A DNA stretch of 23,432 nucleotides from a virus, in IMG/VR virus record IMGVR_UViG_3300020463_000138, positions 1 through 23,432 of that record, one strand, 5' to 3'. Of this stretch, positions 2,312 to 10,142 are shown piece by piece. The notes beneath the pieces are model-generated. The model saw only the letters and a list, made by a program, of their open reading frames with translations. It did not search any database and was not told the DNA's origin. Position numbers and translations under genes: made by a program. Numbering within the stretch: position 1 is the stretch's first letter; every line of letters starts with the position of its first letter.

Positions 2312-2580
2312 TGGAAAAAATTATTAGTGAATTAAAAAAACTTGATATTAAAGATTTCTCTAAGATTGAAAAGATAATTAGTCAAATCAAGTTAGATAAA
2401 GTAAAGTCTATTGTCAAAGTTGGTGATAGGGTTTATGTCGTTCAAAAGACAAAAAAAAGAGCAGGAACAGTTATGAAGATTAATAATTCTAAAGCAATTG
2501 TTAATATGGTTGTTTCACCGATTACTGGCGAAACTGCTGATTATTCAGTTCCATTTTCAATGTTACAAAAGGTTAGTTAA
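2311..2580 (+). CDS. Hypothetical protein with KOW/SH3-like segment
   Basis: An 89-aa protein with two parts: a Lys-rich helical N-terminus (residues 1-35) and a C-terminal beta-rich segment, 'VKVGDRVYVVQKTKKRAGTV', which reads like an SH3/KOW-type barrel as found in small nucleic-acid or ribosome-associated proteins. The similarity is a pattern impression, not a confirmed domain. It is translationally coupled to the 58-aa gene before it and directly abuts the membrane protein at 2581. Confidence 0.6.
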   Translation: MEKIISELKKLDIKDFSKIEKIISQIKLDKVKSIVKVGDRVYVVQKTKKRAGTVMKINNSKAIVNMVVSPITGETADYSVPFSMLQKVS

Positions 2581-2748
2581 ATGGAATGGCAACTTGCATG
2601 GGATATTTTATATCCTCTTATTATTCTTGGTTTCATCATAGGTACTGTATTCATGGTGATTACAGGCGCTGTGAGACTAGGTTGGATGTTAGCACCGTAT
2701 GTTTTTATCGGTGCATTATTATTATGGTTTTTTAATTTGGGAGTTTAA
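2581..2748 (+). CDS. Small two-helix membrane protein, 55 aa
   Basis: ATG 2581 follows the preceding TAA with no gap; GGTTAG may serve as a weak Shine-Dalgarno. The 55-residue product is almost all hydrophobic: one helix at about residues 10-30 (LYPLIILGFIIGTVFMVITG) and another at about 38-53. The loop carries a single Arg (VRLGW). This is a holin-like size and layout, but the neighbours are not lysis genes, so no lysis role is claimed. Confidence 0.55.
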   Translation: MEWQLAWDILYPLIILGFIIGTVFMVITGAVRLGWMLAPYVFIGALLLWFFNLGV

Positions 2749-2749
2749 T

Positions 2750-3067
2750 ATGAGTAATTTAGTCGCAGTAATACATACAAAATTTGAAGGTGAACCATCA
2801 ACGGTTGCATTTGTTAAAGTGCCAGATGATGCAGAAACTTTAACAGATAAGTTGGAGTATGCTTACAAATGGACAAACAACATTCATGGTAGTTGGTCAT
2901 TAAAGATTGGTAATGATGCAAATCCAAATGTTACAGTTATCGGTGATACAAAAGATGGTACTCTTGGTATTAGGTCTACTTCAGTTGGTGACCAAATGTT
3001 AATTGGTACTGAAAAGTATGTAGTCGGTAGAATAGGTTTTGAAACTTTAAATGGAGAGACAATATGA
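2750..3067 (+). CDS. Hypothetical protein, 105 aa
   Basis: The open frame extends back to 2699, but ATG 2750, just after the previous TAA and with a GGGAG site at 2740-2744, is the likely start. The product is a small soluble, beta-rich protein: MSNLVAVIHTKFEGEP, a central tryptophan segment (WTNNIHGSWSLKIG) and a C-terminal 'GRIGFETLNG'. Similar short proteins occur in marine T4-like phages; no function is known to me. The end overlaps the next gene by four bases (ATGA at 3064). Confidence 0.6.
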   Translation: MSNLVAVIHTKFEGEPSTVAFVKVPDDAETLTDKLEYAYKWTNNIHGSWSLKIGNDANPNVTVIGDTKDGTLGIRSTSVGDQMLIGTEKYVVGRIGFETLNGETI

Positions 3068-6325: not shown

Positions 6326-7006
6326 ATGCAATTTATACATAATGATTTACCGATTGAAATTCCAGAGTTGAAAACTAAAAATATTAATCGCAAAAGATTT
6401 TACGAAACACCAGATGGTAAACTTTATCCATCCATTACTACTGTATTGAATAAAAAAAAGATGCAAGGTATTAGTGAATGGAGAAAAAAAGTCGGTGAGG
6501 ATGTTGCAAACTATATTGCAAGAACTGCCGCAAATCGTGGTACTAAAGTCCACCATATGTGTGAGGATTTTTTAAATAATAATTTTGATGAAGAAGTGCA
6601 TAAAAAGAACTTTTTACCATTTACACTTTTTAATCAAATGAAACCTATCCTTATGCAAAAAGTGAATAACATCCTTGCACAAGAGGTATCACTTTTTACT
6701 AATAAATATAAGGTAGCAGGCCGAGTCGATTGTATTGCAAAATATGATGGCGTTCCATCCATTATAGATTTCAAAACTTCTACAAAAGAAAGAAATGATG
6801 ACTGGAATGAGTCCTACTATATTCAAGCGTCTGCATATTCAGAGATGTTTGAAGAACGAACTAGTATTTCAATTCCACAAATTGTAATTCTAGTTGTAAC
6901 TGAAGATGGAGTTGTTCAAGAGTTTGTTAAAAACAAAGGAGATTACATTCCCAAGTTGATAGAGGCAATTGATGATTTCACAGAAGATTGGGAAAAAGAA
7001 AAATGA
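6326..7006 (+). CDS. RecB-like PD-(D/E)XK nuclease
   Basis: A 226-aa protein with the full RecB/Cas4-type nuclease motif set: 'RGTKVHHMCEDF' (H76/H77), E120 in 'LAQEVSL', 'GRVDCIAKY' with D135, 'IIDFKTS' with D148 and K150, and 'YIQASAYSEMF' (the Q-x3-Y helix). Such nucleases are frequent in marine T4-like phages, where they probably process DNA ends or degrade host DNA. ATG 6326 has a GAGGT site 10 bases upstream. The stop overlaps the next gene (ATGA at 7003). No Fe-S cluster cysteines of the AddB/Cas4 type are present. Confidence 0.85.
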   Translation: MQFIHNDLPIEIPELKTKNINRKRFYETPDGKLYPSITTVLNKKKMQGISEWRKKVGEDVANYIARTAANRGTKVHHMCEDFLNNNFDEEVHKKNFLPFTLFNQMKPILMQKVNNILAQEVSLFTNKYKVAGRVDCIAKYDGVPSIIDFKTSTKERNDDWNESYYIQASAYSEMFEERTSISIPQIVILVVTEDGVVQEFVKNKGDYIPKLIEAIDDFTEDWEKEK

Positions 7007-7257
7007 AATGGTTCGTAGTAGTAATAATGATGTGGCAAACTGACGGTACTACACCACTATGGATACCATACGATACATTTGAAACCAAAGATGAGTGTAT
7101 TAGTTTTGTACAGATAAACCAATTTGGATTGTTTGAAAAGGCTATAGAACAATATGAGGGAAGAATACCACCACAACAAATATCTTGTGTTGATGGAAAA
7201 GATTTAAAAGAATTTATTGGTATGCCAACCCCCACAGAGGGAAAAACTGGTGTTTGA
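7003..7257 (+). CDS. Hypothetical protein, 84 aa
   Basis: ATG 7003 (ATGA overlap with the nuclease stop) is preferred to TTG 6988. The product begins MKWFVVVIMMWQTDG, a short hydrophobic stretch that may be a buried strand rather than a signal, then 'DTFETKDECISFVQINQFG' and 'CVDGKDLKEF'. Two Cys (in DECIS and ISCVD) might form a disulfide. Similar short proteins next to nuclease genes occur in marine phages, but I cannot name a family. It overlaps the start of the SNase gene by eight bases. Confidence 0.55.
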   Translation: MKWFVVVIMMWQTDGTTPLWIPYDTFETKDECISFVQINQFGLFEKAIEQYEGRIPPQQISCVDGKDLKEFIGMPTPTEGKTGV

Positions 7258-7669
7258 ATATAAATGTAACTTGGTAAAAGTTGTAGATGGTGATACGGTT
7301 GATGTTGATATTGACTTAGGTTTTGGAGTGTGGTTAAGAAAACAAAGAATTAGATTGTATGGTATCGACACTCCAGAATCTAGAACGAGAGATAAAGTTG
7401 AAAAAGTTTATGGATTAGCTGCAAAGGGATTTTTAGTTGATATGTTATCGACTGGTGATATGTCAATAAAAACTCATAAAGATGCAAAAGGTAAGTTTGG
7501 TAGAATACTTGGAGAACTTTTTGTTAAAGCTTCTGTAGGCGAATTAAATATCAATCAATCTTTAGTAGAGAACAATCATGCAGTTCGTTATTATGGTCAA
7601 TCAAAAGATGATATGTTAGCAGAACATCTTAAAAACCGTAAGATACTTGCCTTGACAACTGATGAGTAA
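7250..7669 (+). CDS. Thermonuclease-like protein (SNase fold)
   Basis: A 139-aa SNase-domain protein. The start is taken as GTG 7250, nine bases after an AGAGG site; the open frame continues to TTG 7217 but without a better ribosome site. The staphylococcal nuclease active site is fully present: 'VVDGDTVDVDIDLGF', R35 and E43 in 'RIRLYGIDTPES', and R85 in 'GKFGRILGEL', matching the classical R35/E43/R87 trio. No signal peptide is visible, so it would act inside the cell, perhaps on host DNA or RNA. Its 3' end contains the -35 of the tmRNA promoter. Confidence 0.85.
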   Translation: MFEYKCNLVKVVDGDTVDVDIDLGFGVWLRKQRIRLYGIDTPESRTRDKVEKVYGLAAKGFLVDMLSTGDMSIKTHKDAKGKFGRILGELFVKASVGELNINQSLVENNHAVRYYGQSKDDMLAEHLKNRKILALTTDE

Positions 7670-7682
7670 TCTGATATAAATA
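7652..7682 (+). promoter_or_regulatory. Overlapping early and late promoters for the tmRNA
   Basis: TTGACA (7652-7657), 17 bases, then TATAAA (7675-7680), which is the first part of a perfect T4 late box TATAAATA (7675-7682). Both would start transcription near 7688-7690, just ahead of the tmRNA acceptor piece. The same fused design is found before gp32 (10139-10169). Confidence 0.78.
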
Positions 7683-7687
7683 GAACA

Positions 7688-7940
7688 TAATTTGTTGATA
7701 CGATTCAACGCATGACTAGGACATGGGGGCAGTACCCATCACCTCCACCATAACTAAACCTCGATTGAGGGGGTGAAATAGGTTCGACTGGTATGTAGAG
7801 ATGAGAGTAGAATTATCGGTTGACTGCGTAATAGGTCAAAACTGTAAATGCAAACGATAATTTTGCATCTGAGGATTATGCACTAGCTGCTTAATTGCTC
7901 TGAGGTTCGGTGATGTCCTTGGAAACAGAAACATCACCAC
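7688..7940 (+). ncRNA. ssrA: Circularly permuted two-piece tmRNA
   Basis: Order is acceptor piece first, coding piece second, as in alphaproteobacterial ssrA. The acceptor piece ends with CACCTCC (7740-7746) and an encoded ACCA (7747-7750). After an 18-base intervening segment (7751-7768) the coding piece starts GGGGGTG (7769-7775), which pairs with CACCTCC over 7 bp with one G-U. Next is the conserved tmRNA D-arm GGTTCGAC (7781-7788). A P2 helix can form between CTGGTATG (7788-7795) and CATGACTAG (7711-7719; one bulged G). A T-arm-like stem ATGGG/CCCAT (7723-7727/7735-7739) has a 7-base loop GGCAGTA rather than a TTCRA-type loop. Hairpin TTGAC/GTCAA (7820-7824/7835-7839) sits where PK1 should be. 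The tag frame is 7850-7894. A perfect 8-bp hairpin GGTGATGT/ACATCACC (7909-7916/7931-7938) closes the coding piece. Exact ends are estimates. Confidence 0.9.
7850..7894 (+). other. tmRNA proteolysis-tag reading frame
   Basis: Resume codon GCA at 7850, stop TAA at 7892-7894. Encodes ANDNFASEDYALAA; with the charged alanine the tag is AANDNFASEDYALAA. The AANDNF start and the ALAA end match known alphaproteobacterial tags and the terminal residues read by ClpXP-type proteases. SmpB is not encoded in this window, so the host protein is presumably used. Confidence 0.9.
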
Positions 7941-7960
7941 TAATTAATTATGGAGAAAAG

Positions 7961-8332
7961 ATGAGAAAGTTTGTTTACGAATGTTGGAATGGTGTCATGA
8001 ACGCTGATGTCAATCCACTTAAAAAAATTCCACACACAAATACAAGACATATGATACTACAAGTCCTAGCATGGATGTGGTGTATTGTGTTTAGTAGTTA
8101 TTTTGGTAGTATGTGGATTTTTGGTATTACTACTATTGCTCATATATTTCTATTAGCAGCTATTGCAATAACAGTTGCTACCTTTGAAACTGCAAAAAGA
8201 AGACCAGAGTTCTTTTTAAGATTAGAAAAAGGAACAAATGGATATCATACACCAAGTCGTAGTAGATTTATGTATTACAATGGAAAAAGAATACCCTTAG
8301 ATGAAAATGATATGGGCGGAGAACACGAATAA
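7961..8332 (+). CDS. Conserved membrane protein, 123 aa
   Basis: ATG 7961 follows a GGAG site at 7952-7955. In-frame codons GTG 7910 and ATG 7913 lie inside the tmRNA 3' hairpin and are not used as start. The product has a polar N-terminus (YECWNGVMNADVNPLKKIP), two adjacent hydrophobic segments at about residues 31-52 ('ILQVLAWMWCIVFSSYFG') and 54-76, and a basic C-terminus. The sequence 'HMILQVLAWMWC' looks familiar from T4-like marine phages, function unknown. A holin role is conceivable from its topology but unproven. The stop overlaps gp33. Confidence 0.7.
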   Translation: MRKFVYECWNGVMNADVNPLKKIPHTNTRHMILQVLAWMWCIVFSSYFGSMWIFGITTIAHIFLLAAIAITVATFETAKRRPEFFLRLEKGTNGYHTPSRSRFMYYNGKRIPLDENDMGGEHE

Positions 8333-8565
8333 TGGACATAGAATTTGAAAAATTAATGACACCAAAAAAGTTTTCTATTATGATAGAAAGAATTGCAAAA
8401 GATAGTGGTTGTAATCATATGGATGCTGTCATTGATTATTGTGAAAAGAATAAAATTGAACCAGAACAAATCAAACCTCTTGTTACTAAATCTCTAAAAG
8501 AAAAATTAGAGGTAAATGCAAGGGAACTTAACTTCTTACCAAAAGTTGCAACATTACCTATATGA
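8332..8565 (+). CDS. 33: gp33-like late transcription coactivator
   Basis: A 77-aa protein corresponding to the core of T4 gp33 (112 aa), the adaptor joining RNA polymerase at late promoters to the sliding clamp. The helix 'HMDAVIDYCEKNKIEPEQI' followed by 'LKEKLEVNARELNFLPK' aligns with the T4 pattern of a helix, 'EEN.I', then '..IQSEAIDENLL'. The T4 C-terminal clamp-binding tail (ending LDFLL) is replaced by a short 'VATLPI'. Position directly before gp59 is the T4 order. Late boxes at 4892, 7675, 10162, 11193, 16652 and 21437 are the expected targets. Confidence 0.75.
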   Translation: MDIEFEKLMTPKKFSIMIERIAKDSGCNHMDAVIDYCEKNKIEPEQIKPLVTKSLKEKLEVNARELNFLPKVATLPI

Positions 8566-9167
8566 TGACTATGGAAGCTTATGATGCATACAAAATCTAT
8601 ATAGCACTTAAATCACATTTTAATGGTGACTATGATTTTGTAAAATATAATGGAAAGACAAATGTGAAAGTAGATACATTTCTAAAAAGAGGTGACAGAC
8701 CTTTTTTTGGTAGAGTTGCAAGAAAATATCTTACCACAGAAAATGTCAAAAGATTTTTCATATCTAATTTTTTAGTAAATACTAAGGGTTGGATAGGCGA
8801 CTTTAATGAACAAAACTTTGTTGATTATAAAAAAAGAGTTGAAAGTCTTTCGTACAATTATAAAACAGAATTACAAGAAATATTAAGAAAAGTAAAATTG
8901 TTAGATGAAATATTTTTAGTAAATGGTGGACAACATCCTTTGTTATTAAAACAATTTCTTGCAAAAAAGATTAGTGTAGAGACAATGTGTATATTAGAAT
9001 CACTTATGGAGTTCATACCTTATTGGGATAAGAATATAACAGAAACATATGTTTGGCCAGAGAAAAGAAAACTTATAAAAAATTATCAATCTGTCTTGAC
9101 TTTTGATAAAAGTTCGTATAAAATAGAAACAATCAACCTTGTAAAGGAGCATACAAATGAAGTCTGA
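8562..9167 (+). CDS. 59: gp59-like loader of replicative helicase
   Basis: A 201-aa protein similar throughout to T4 gp59 (217 aa), which loads gp41 helicase onto gp32-coated forks. Matches include 'AYKIYIALKSHFNGDYDFVK' with 'KYNGK' following, 'FFGRVARKY', 'FISNFLVNTKGWIGD', and the C-terminal half 'LKQFLAKKISVETMCILESL'. ATG 8562 overlaps the gp33 stop (ATGATG); ATG 8565 and 8571 are alternatives. A TTGACT-N17-TAAAAT promoter lies within its end. Neighbour gp33 before it and gp32 shortly after are as in T4, which supports the call. Confidence 0.88.
   Translation: MMTMEAYDAYKIYIALKSHFNGDYDFVKYNGKTNVKVDTFLKRGDRPFFGRVARKYLTTENVKRFFISNFLVNTKGWIGDFNEQNFVDYKKRVESLSYNYKTELQEILRKVKLLDEIFLVNGGQHPLLLKQFLAKKISVETMCILESLMEFIPYWDKNITETYVWPEKRKLIKNYQSVLTFDKSSYKIETINLVKEHTNEV
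9096..9124 (+). promoter_or_regulatory. Possible sigma70-like promoter inside gp59
   Basis: TTGACT (9096-9101), 17-base spacer, TAAAAT (9119-9124), in the CTTGACT context shared by the other promoters. It would serve the 9157 gene and thyX downstream. It lies within coding sequence. Confidence 0.45.
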
Positions 9168-9535: not shown

Positions 9536-10142
9536 AGTAATAGATGTTATGGGAACAGACCTAACTGTAGTAAATGCAGCTCGTGTTTCTTTTGCAAAAG
9601 AACATAGTGAATTTGATGGAATAAAAGATACTAAACTAATAAAGTATCTTGCAGAACATAATCATTGGAGTCCATTTGGACATTGCAGTATGCAGTTTCA
9701 TATTAAAGCACCAATTTTTGTTGCAAGACAATTAGTAAAACACCAAGTAGGTTTAGTATGGAATGAGGTGTCTAGACGATATGTAGATGATGACCCAGAG
9801 TTTTATATACCAGACACATGGAGAAGTAGACCAGAAAGTTCTAAACAAGGTTCTGGTGAAGAGATAATAATTTATAACATTGATTCTACATTACAATTTG
9901 TAAAACAAACCTACGATAATTTATTGAAAGCAAACGTAGCGCCAGAAATGGCAAGAATGATTTTACCACAAAACTTATACACGGAGTGGTATTGGTCTGG
10001 AACTTTAATGGCATTTGCAAGAGTGTGTAATTTAAGGTGTGCAAAAGATACACAATGGGAAACACAACAAATTGCAAATCTAATACATTATGAAGCCAGA
10101 CAACTATTTCCTACAAGTTGGAAATATTTAAGAGTGACTTGA
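9525..10142 (+). CDS. thyX: Flavin-dependent thymidylate synthase ThyX
   Basis: A 205-aa ThyX, which makes dTMP from dUMP using FAD and methylene-tetrahydrofolate, supporting phage DNA synthesis. Landmarks: 'NHWSPFGH' (46-53), the ThyX signature region 'RQLVKHQVGLVWNEVSRRY' (68-86), and 'PQNLYTEWYWSG' in the second half. The signature is atypical: KHQ replaces RHR, and one extra residue precedes NE-x-S-x-RY. Other phage ThyX proteins have similar variants as I recall. ATG 9525 overlaps the preceding gene. ThyX is typical of marine phages; in T4 the thymidylate synthase is ThyA-type and lies elsewhere. The gp32 promoter starts inside its last codons. Confidence 0.9.
   Translation: MEVKVIDVMGTDLTVVNAARVSFAKEHSEFDGIKDTKLIKYLAEHNHWSPFGHCSMQFHIKAPIFVARQLVKHQVGLVWNEVSRRYVDDDPEFYIPDTWRSRPESSKQGSGEEIIIYNIDSTLQFVKQTYDNLLKANVAPEMARMILPQNLYTEWYWSGTLMAFARVCNLRCAKDTQWETQQIANLIHYEARQLFPTSWKYLRVT

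Follow-up and report, generated by a model that had tools for sequence, protein, structure and literature searches.

A circularly permuted tmRNA gene in a T4-like phage, and protein genes in the intervening sequences of its relatives

The 23,432-nt viral DNA analyzed here (the window; IMG/VR record IMGVR_UViG_3300020463_000138) carries a complete circularly permuted (two-piece) tmRNA gene at positions 7687 to 7941 of the plus strand, as identified by Rfam models, ARAGORN, and direct reading. We consider it very probable that the gene works as a permuted, two-piece phage ssrA that rescues ribosomes through host factors. It is also probable, with slightly less assurance, that the gene belongs to an old, phage-specific tmRNA lineage in which one or two protein genes are nested in the intervening sequence (IVS) between the RNA halves, share the tmRNA promoter, and are freed by tRNA-processing enzymes. 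Protein genes in the IVS of a permuted tmRNA appear to be an undescribed arrangement: none is described in the literature searched, of which coverage was partial, and the IVS contents mentioned in a 2025 tmRNA database paper are limited to a tRNA-Ala and a repeat element, each in a single IVS.

Anatomy of the tmRNA gene and its surroundings

Two Rfam models match the window over their whole lengths (cmscan). RF04321 aligns to 7687 to 7894 (116.6 bits, E 1.6e-22) and RF01849 to 7648 to 7941 (116.1 bits, E 2.1e-31), against gathering cut-offs of 47 and 50 bits, respectively. ARAGORN calls a permuted tmRNA (tmRNA*) at 7656 to 7985 with the tag ANDNFASEDYALAA*. An earlier note, made from the letters alone, had proposed a permuted two-piece tmRNA at 7688 to 7940; these coordinates were correct to within one base, and the Infernal search with the permuted models, both of them scoring well above cut-off, agrees with ARAGORN in supporting the assignment.

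The acceptor (3′) piece comes first (7687 to 7750) and is supported by both Rfam alignments and by covariation in viral loci. It contains the 5′ strands of P2 (CAT, 7711 to 7713, and CTAG, 7716 to 7719), a GAC linker between the P2 strand and the T arm (7720 to 7722), the T arm itself (ATGGG-GGCAGTA-CCCAT, 7723 to 7739), the 3′ strand of the acceptor stem (CACCTCC, 7740 to 7746), A73 (7747), and CCA (7748 to 7750). Between CCA and GGGGG, the CM alignments leave an IVS of 18 nt without an ORF (7751 to 7768), which is predicted to be removed from the precursor; cleavage would yield two mature pieces. The coding piece (7769 to 7941, by direct reading, the Rfam models, and ARAGORN) opens with the acceptor 5′ strand GGGGGTG (7769 to 7775; GGGGG, 7769 to 7773) and the D-loop region, and continues with the 3′ strands of P2 (7788 to 7791 and 7793 to 7795), the tag reading frame, ANDNFASEDYALAA plus TAA (7850 to 7894, where the RF04321 match also ends), and a 3′ hairpin/pseudoknot element (7903 to 7941). 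The earlier note had read a CCA-ending acceptor piece ahead of a GGGGG-starting coding piece, a 7-bp acceptor pairing, a possible P2 helix across both pieces, and an intact tag frame; these are all present, with P2 further supported by covariation in 178 viral relatives. The acceptor stem pairs CACCTCC with GGGGGTG and includes G3-U70, the alanine identity pair. The tag has a stop codon, a hydrophobic degron end, and the canonical ALAA. Of 200 shuffled sequences, only one folded at least as well as the precursor (z −2.9).

A sigma70-type promoter, absent from the earlier note, was found by direct reading at 7652 to 7680 on the plus strand (TTGACA, 7652 to 7657; 17-nt spacer; TATAAA, 7675 to 7680). 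It overlaps the 3′ end of an SNase-like nuclease gene lying directly upstream of the tmRNA (7250 to 7669; Pfam PF00565), and its predicted transcript start, at about 7687, is where the RF04321 match begins. The conserved upstream neighbor is a PDDEXK nuclease gene (6326 to 7006; Pfam PF12705, synteny). Downstream, also on the plus strand, lie genes for a 123-aa predicted membrane protein (7961 to 8332; Shine–Dalgarno sequence GGAG at about 7951 to 7954), the late-transcription coactivator gp33 (8332 to 8565; PHROG 254, E 1.6e-21), which is the conserved downstream neighbor, and the helicase loader gp59 (8562 to 9167; Pfam PF08993/PF08994). With gp33, gp59, gp32 (PF08804), PhoH, and ThyX all within the window, the claim that a T4-like phage encodes this tmRNA is well founded; the locus is of a Kyanoviridae-like type, related to those of phages Melnitz and HTVC008M. 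A megablast search of phage records with the entire window gave no match, and neither PHROGs nor Pfam gave a curated or clear family for the 7961 to 8332 protein or for the IVS proteins tested.

The earlier note held that a permuted tmRNA would be notable in a phage of the T4-like group. It is not new there, for Melnitz, a T4-like Methylophilales phage of host OM43, was published in 2022 with a permuted two-piece tmRNA, and the same work counted 53 unique two-piece tmRNAs among phage genomes, of which 50 are marine or aquatic (PMC9004378). The SAR11/Pelagibacter phage HTVC008M has an unannotated copy (KC465899, 145120 to 145461; locus L405, 2621 to 2962), and the tmRNA of the window is therefore of an already known kind. 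Melnitz (MZ577095-98) resembles the window in its permuted alpha-type tmRNA (∼82% identity in the matched DNA), its placement between the PDDEXK nuclease and gp33, and its promoter, which is the same. It differs in its tag, in an IVS of 142 nt that holds an unannotated, Shine–Dalgarno-led 54-aa ORF, whereas the 18-nt IVS of the window is empty, and in a glutamine riboswitch after the tmRNA, for which (RF01739) the window has no match at the Rfam gathering cut-off. This riboswitch (locus L002, 10354 to 10402; 52.8 bits) is a separate element just 3′ of the tmRNA, and the GenBank SsrA feature of Melnitz covers most of it. The HTVC008M tmRNA is likewise matched by RF04321 (90.6 bits) and has the same syntenic position, between an exonuclease gene and gp33; unlike that of the window, it has a 10-aa tag, ANFNEYALAA, and an IVS of ∼48 nt with complementary ends. 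Because a sequenced SAR11 phage carries a copy, function is testable in culture. Bxz1-group mycobacteriophages, Bacillus phage G, and DS6A also encode tmRNAs, as the window does; those of the Bxz1 group and phage G are one-piece forms, and that of DS6A is the tRNA-like part only. These are listed as known phage ssrA genes (PMC4131195).

Viral relatives and their tags

IMG/VR was searched for relatives with two sequence patterns, one for the coding piece and one for the T arm, and by protein; the counts are samples among the matches listed, not censuses. The pattern searches yielded a main set of at least 177 unique viral permuted tmRNAs, and 142 of the 177 contigs (among the matches listed) encode relatives of window or Melnitz proteins. 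At 102 or more loci, the neighbors are T4-like, with the tmRNA between PhoH/PDDEXK and gp33/gp59; both flanking sides are present at 58 of 102 (among the matches listed). Upstream of the CCA end, a TTGAC[AT]-N17/18-TATAAA-type site occurs in 88 of 103 T4-like loci among the matches listed, at a promoter-to-CCA distance of 67 to 77 nt, mostly 70 to 71, while the spacer letters vary.

The RNA itself is conserved in its pairing. G3-U70 is present in 178 of 178 viral relatives among the matches listed, a figure that is conditional because the parser demanded at least six of seven acceptor pairs. P2 pairing played no part in locus selection; its position 3 is nevertheless paired in 176 of the 178 viral loci among the matches listed, compared with a mean of 83 with shuffled partners, and the pairs are A-U, U-A, C-G, and U-G.

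The tags of T4-like phages are mostly 14 aa long, a length seen in 0 of 102 bacteria (among the matches listed), whereas SAR11 tags have 9 aa (ANESYALAA or ANDKFALAA). Examples of the short SAR11 type are the Pelagibacteraceae loci L133, L140, L160, and L178, with IVSs of about 8 to 16 nt. Unusually long predicted tags of 28 to 29 aa, such as ANDNVSNVFSFVDFGSLKNYVNEDYALAA, occur at viral loci L103, L018, L052, L064, and L080. ALAA ends the tag in 73 of 95 T4-like loci among the matches listed. In at least 12 unique viral loci, compared with 1 of 102 bacterial tags, the end is AQAA instead (L328, L330, L331, L333, L264, L342, L344, L349, L351, L023, L041, and L280). This ending may weaken ClpX recognition; the variants point to a possible change in degradation in some relatives and suggest that degradation is not always the selected trait.

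A rival reading is that the phage RNA acts mainly against the host system, by competing for SmpB or AlaRS, or by adding an altered tag that stabilizes stalled products or reroutes them to another protease. The dissimilarity from SAR11 tags and the AQAA endings fit such a role, and the DS6A phage tmRNA, which has no CDS, inhibits host tmRNA (PMC11915505). However, ALAA is kept in the tag of the window and in most T4-like phage tags, and the window RNA retains every part needed for trans-translation. We regard a mainly anti-host role as possible but rather unlikely, and ribosome rescue as the preferred reading.

Protein genes in the intervening sequences

Viral and bacterial IVSs differ in length. 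Among the matches listed that share the same T-arm pattern, the IVS exceeds 100 nt in 58 of 124 viral tmRNAs and in 0 of 115 bacterial ones, where the maximum is 82 nt (for 15 of the 115 bacterial IVSs, the length was taken by eye). Of the 48 T4-like loci whose IVS is longer than 100 nt, 31 contain within it an ORF that is 25 codons or longer and has a Shine–Dalgarno-like site; overall, 31 of 102 T4-like relatives hold such a protein gene inside the IVS (both counts among the matches listed). Rfam still scores these split genes, with their nested ORFs, as whole permuted tmRNAs.

Two other origins were considered and rejected. Dinucleotide-shuffled IVSs gave 3.2 expected ORFs (maximum 7) compared with the 31 observed, so chance ORFs do not account for them. 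Assembly chimeras as the source of long IVSs are countered by the recurrence of each main architecture in contigs of different samples, by Melnitz being an isolate, and by the selection acting on the nested genes.

Several unrelated protein families occupy the IVS slot. Pooled dN/dS-like ratios are 0.18 for family A (16 sequences) and 0.21 for family B (6 sequences); those of families C, D, and E, with 3 sequences each, are 0.33, 0.29, and 0.09, and family F has a pN/pS of 0.28. These ratios indicate that the nested genes are under purifying selection, an argument carried by families A and B, the small families being weak alone. Family A is a membrane-like protein of 38 to 59 aa (83 aa in L105), MKNPLVREVSKWMFKAYIVWSICADITLLAGIIYLVFF, without a Pfam or PHROG match and with no match among isolated phages; examples are L088, L038, L059, L098, L017, L105, and relatives. 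When family A was sought by protein, the tmRNA playing no part in the search, 56 unique loci were kept of 274 relatives found, and at 56 of 56 the gene is nested in a permuted tmRNA, to the extent that the contigs could show: 44 were placed by the parser and 11 of the 12 others by sequence reading, the remaining contig (L428) being cut upstream. Its stop is usually the TGA of TGAT, which precedes GGGGG in at least 123 viral IVSs; other IVS families stop at the TAG of a conserved AAATAGG in the coding piece. A divergent permuted tmRNA at L462 has an intact acceptor and T arm, a family A gene in its IVS, and a different D-loop region; the stretch read, close to the contig end, holds no ordinary tag.

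The IVS ORF of Melnitz (MFKWLSKTRLVVITRDYF...) lies at 10052 to 10213 of L002, which is 46096 to 46257 of MZ577097, has a Shine–Dalgarno site, is within the SsrA feature, and extends into the coding piece; it is conserved in L266 and L306. In L015 (the same contig as L505), a 499-nt IVS at 2527 to 3025 (reverse complement) holds two genes, a 34-aa ORF (MFIIRKILEWFRNYDKKQQDKIPKYLSGRRGMME) and then a gene for a 120-aa membrane protein. The order on this contig is PhoH, PDDEXK, an ErpA-like gene, promoter, acceptor piece, the two IVS genes, coding piece, gp33, gp59, and gp32. The 120-aa protein is 56% identical (tblastn) to the product of the window's post-tmRNA gene (7961 to 8332). The arrangement of L015/L505 recurs in contigs L506 and L507, which come from other samples, so that three contigs nest the homolog of the window's downstream gene. 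A KIPKYLSG-type small protein, as in L015, fills the IVS in 4 of 4 Melnitz isolates, for which GenBank gives SsrA only.

A further rival reading is that the locus is kept mainly as a processed leader or spacer, with the promoter and RNase P cleavage controlling how downstream or nested genes are expressed and with rescue as a lesser function. The IVS genes in 31 of 102 T4-like loci (among the matches listed), the promoter directly preceding the tmRNA, and the co-directional genes that follow are in keeping with this idea. Nevertheless, the IVS is empty and 40 nt or shorter both in the window and at 23 of the 102 loci (among the matches listed), yet tmRNA and tag are intact, and we judge a leader function improbable as the main role of this tmRNA gene.

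Lineage and proposed function

A 264-sequence tree contains a branch (SH-aLRT 92) that separates 160 of the 162 viral tmRNAs from all 102 bacterial ones. With the tag removed, the window falls within a set of 42 rows, all viral (support 97/99). The bacterial sample (102, among the matches listed) was restricted to a single T-arm pattern and may therefore lack a closer bacterial relative. Within that sample, the window groups in purely viral sets rather than as a recent host-derived ssrA would. By this evidence, the phage tmRNA appears to be an old phage gene on a branch of its own relative to the sampled bacterial tmRNAs. A passively acquired host copy, brought in by transduction or imprecise excision and drifting without function, is very improbable and already largely refuted: host RNA genes do occur in phages and prophages often integrate in ssrA (PMC9004378), but here synteny and promoter are fixed over about 100 diverged contigs (among the matches listed), P2 covaries, G3-U70 is invariant, nearly all tag frames are intact, the branch is phage-specific, and no integrase was seen nearby.

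The permuted ssrA of alphaproteobacteria (RF01849; Caulobacter, SAR11) shares with the window its gene order, T-loop type, G3-U70, and ALAA-type end. The phage genes form a branch apart from it, and bacterial IVSs measure at most 82 nt (115, among the matches listed); SAR11 ssrA, in particular, has 9-aa tags and IVSs of 8 to 16 nt. In the comparison with SAR11 ssrA that the earlier note had proposed, G3-U70 and the ALAA-type end are shared, and the branch and the length and sequence of the tag differ. The note's inference of an alphaproteobacterial host is unsafe, given that Melnitz infects OM43 and that the phage tmRNAs branch apart from the sampled bacteria. Because the phage tmRNAs constitute a lineage of their own, an alpha-type copy is unfit for inferring a host or a host switch, and as an old phage gene it is weakened as evidence for host switching in Melnitz.

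From the anatomy of the gene we infer a course of timing, processing, charging, SmpB use, and degradation. Host RNA polymerase would read the tmRNA from its own sigma70-type promoter, probably early, judging by the promoter type, giving a transcript whose first base would be the 5′ end of the acceptor piece or close to it. Cleavage by host RNase P before G7769 and trimming by host 3′-end enzymes to the CCA ending at 7750 would remove the 18-nt IVS, and the acceptor stem and P2 would hold the two pieces together. Host AlaRS would charge the RNA via G3-U70, and host SmpB would load it onto ribosomes stalled on broken mRNAs, which are expected because phage nucleases degrade transcripts. The RNA would then add A-ANDNFASEDYALAA and free the ribosome, and the tagged fragment would pass to ClpXP. 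In sister phages, protein genes sharing the tmRNA promoter have come to occupy this discarded IVS.

The permuted tmRNA is widespread across a large group of T4-like marine phages and occupies a syntenic place in their genomes. Standard annotation hides the genes in its IVS, as in Melnitz, where no CDS is annotated inside SsrA, and these genes pose the question of whether tRNA-type processing liberates or destroys the nested mRNA. As these phages retain an RNA of their own, with a tag that differs from that of SAR11, the phage tmRNA probably supplements host rescue during takeover and may subtly redirect it.
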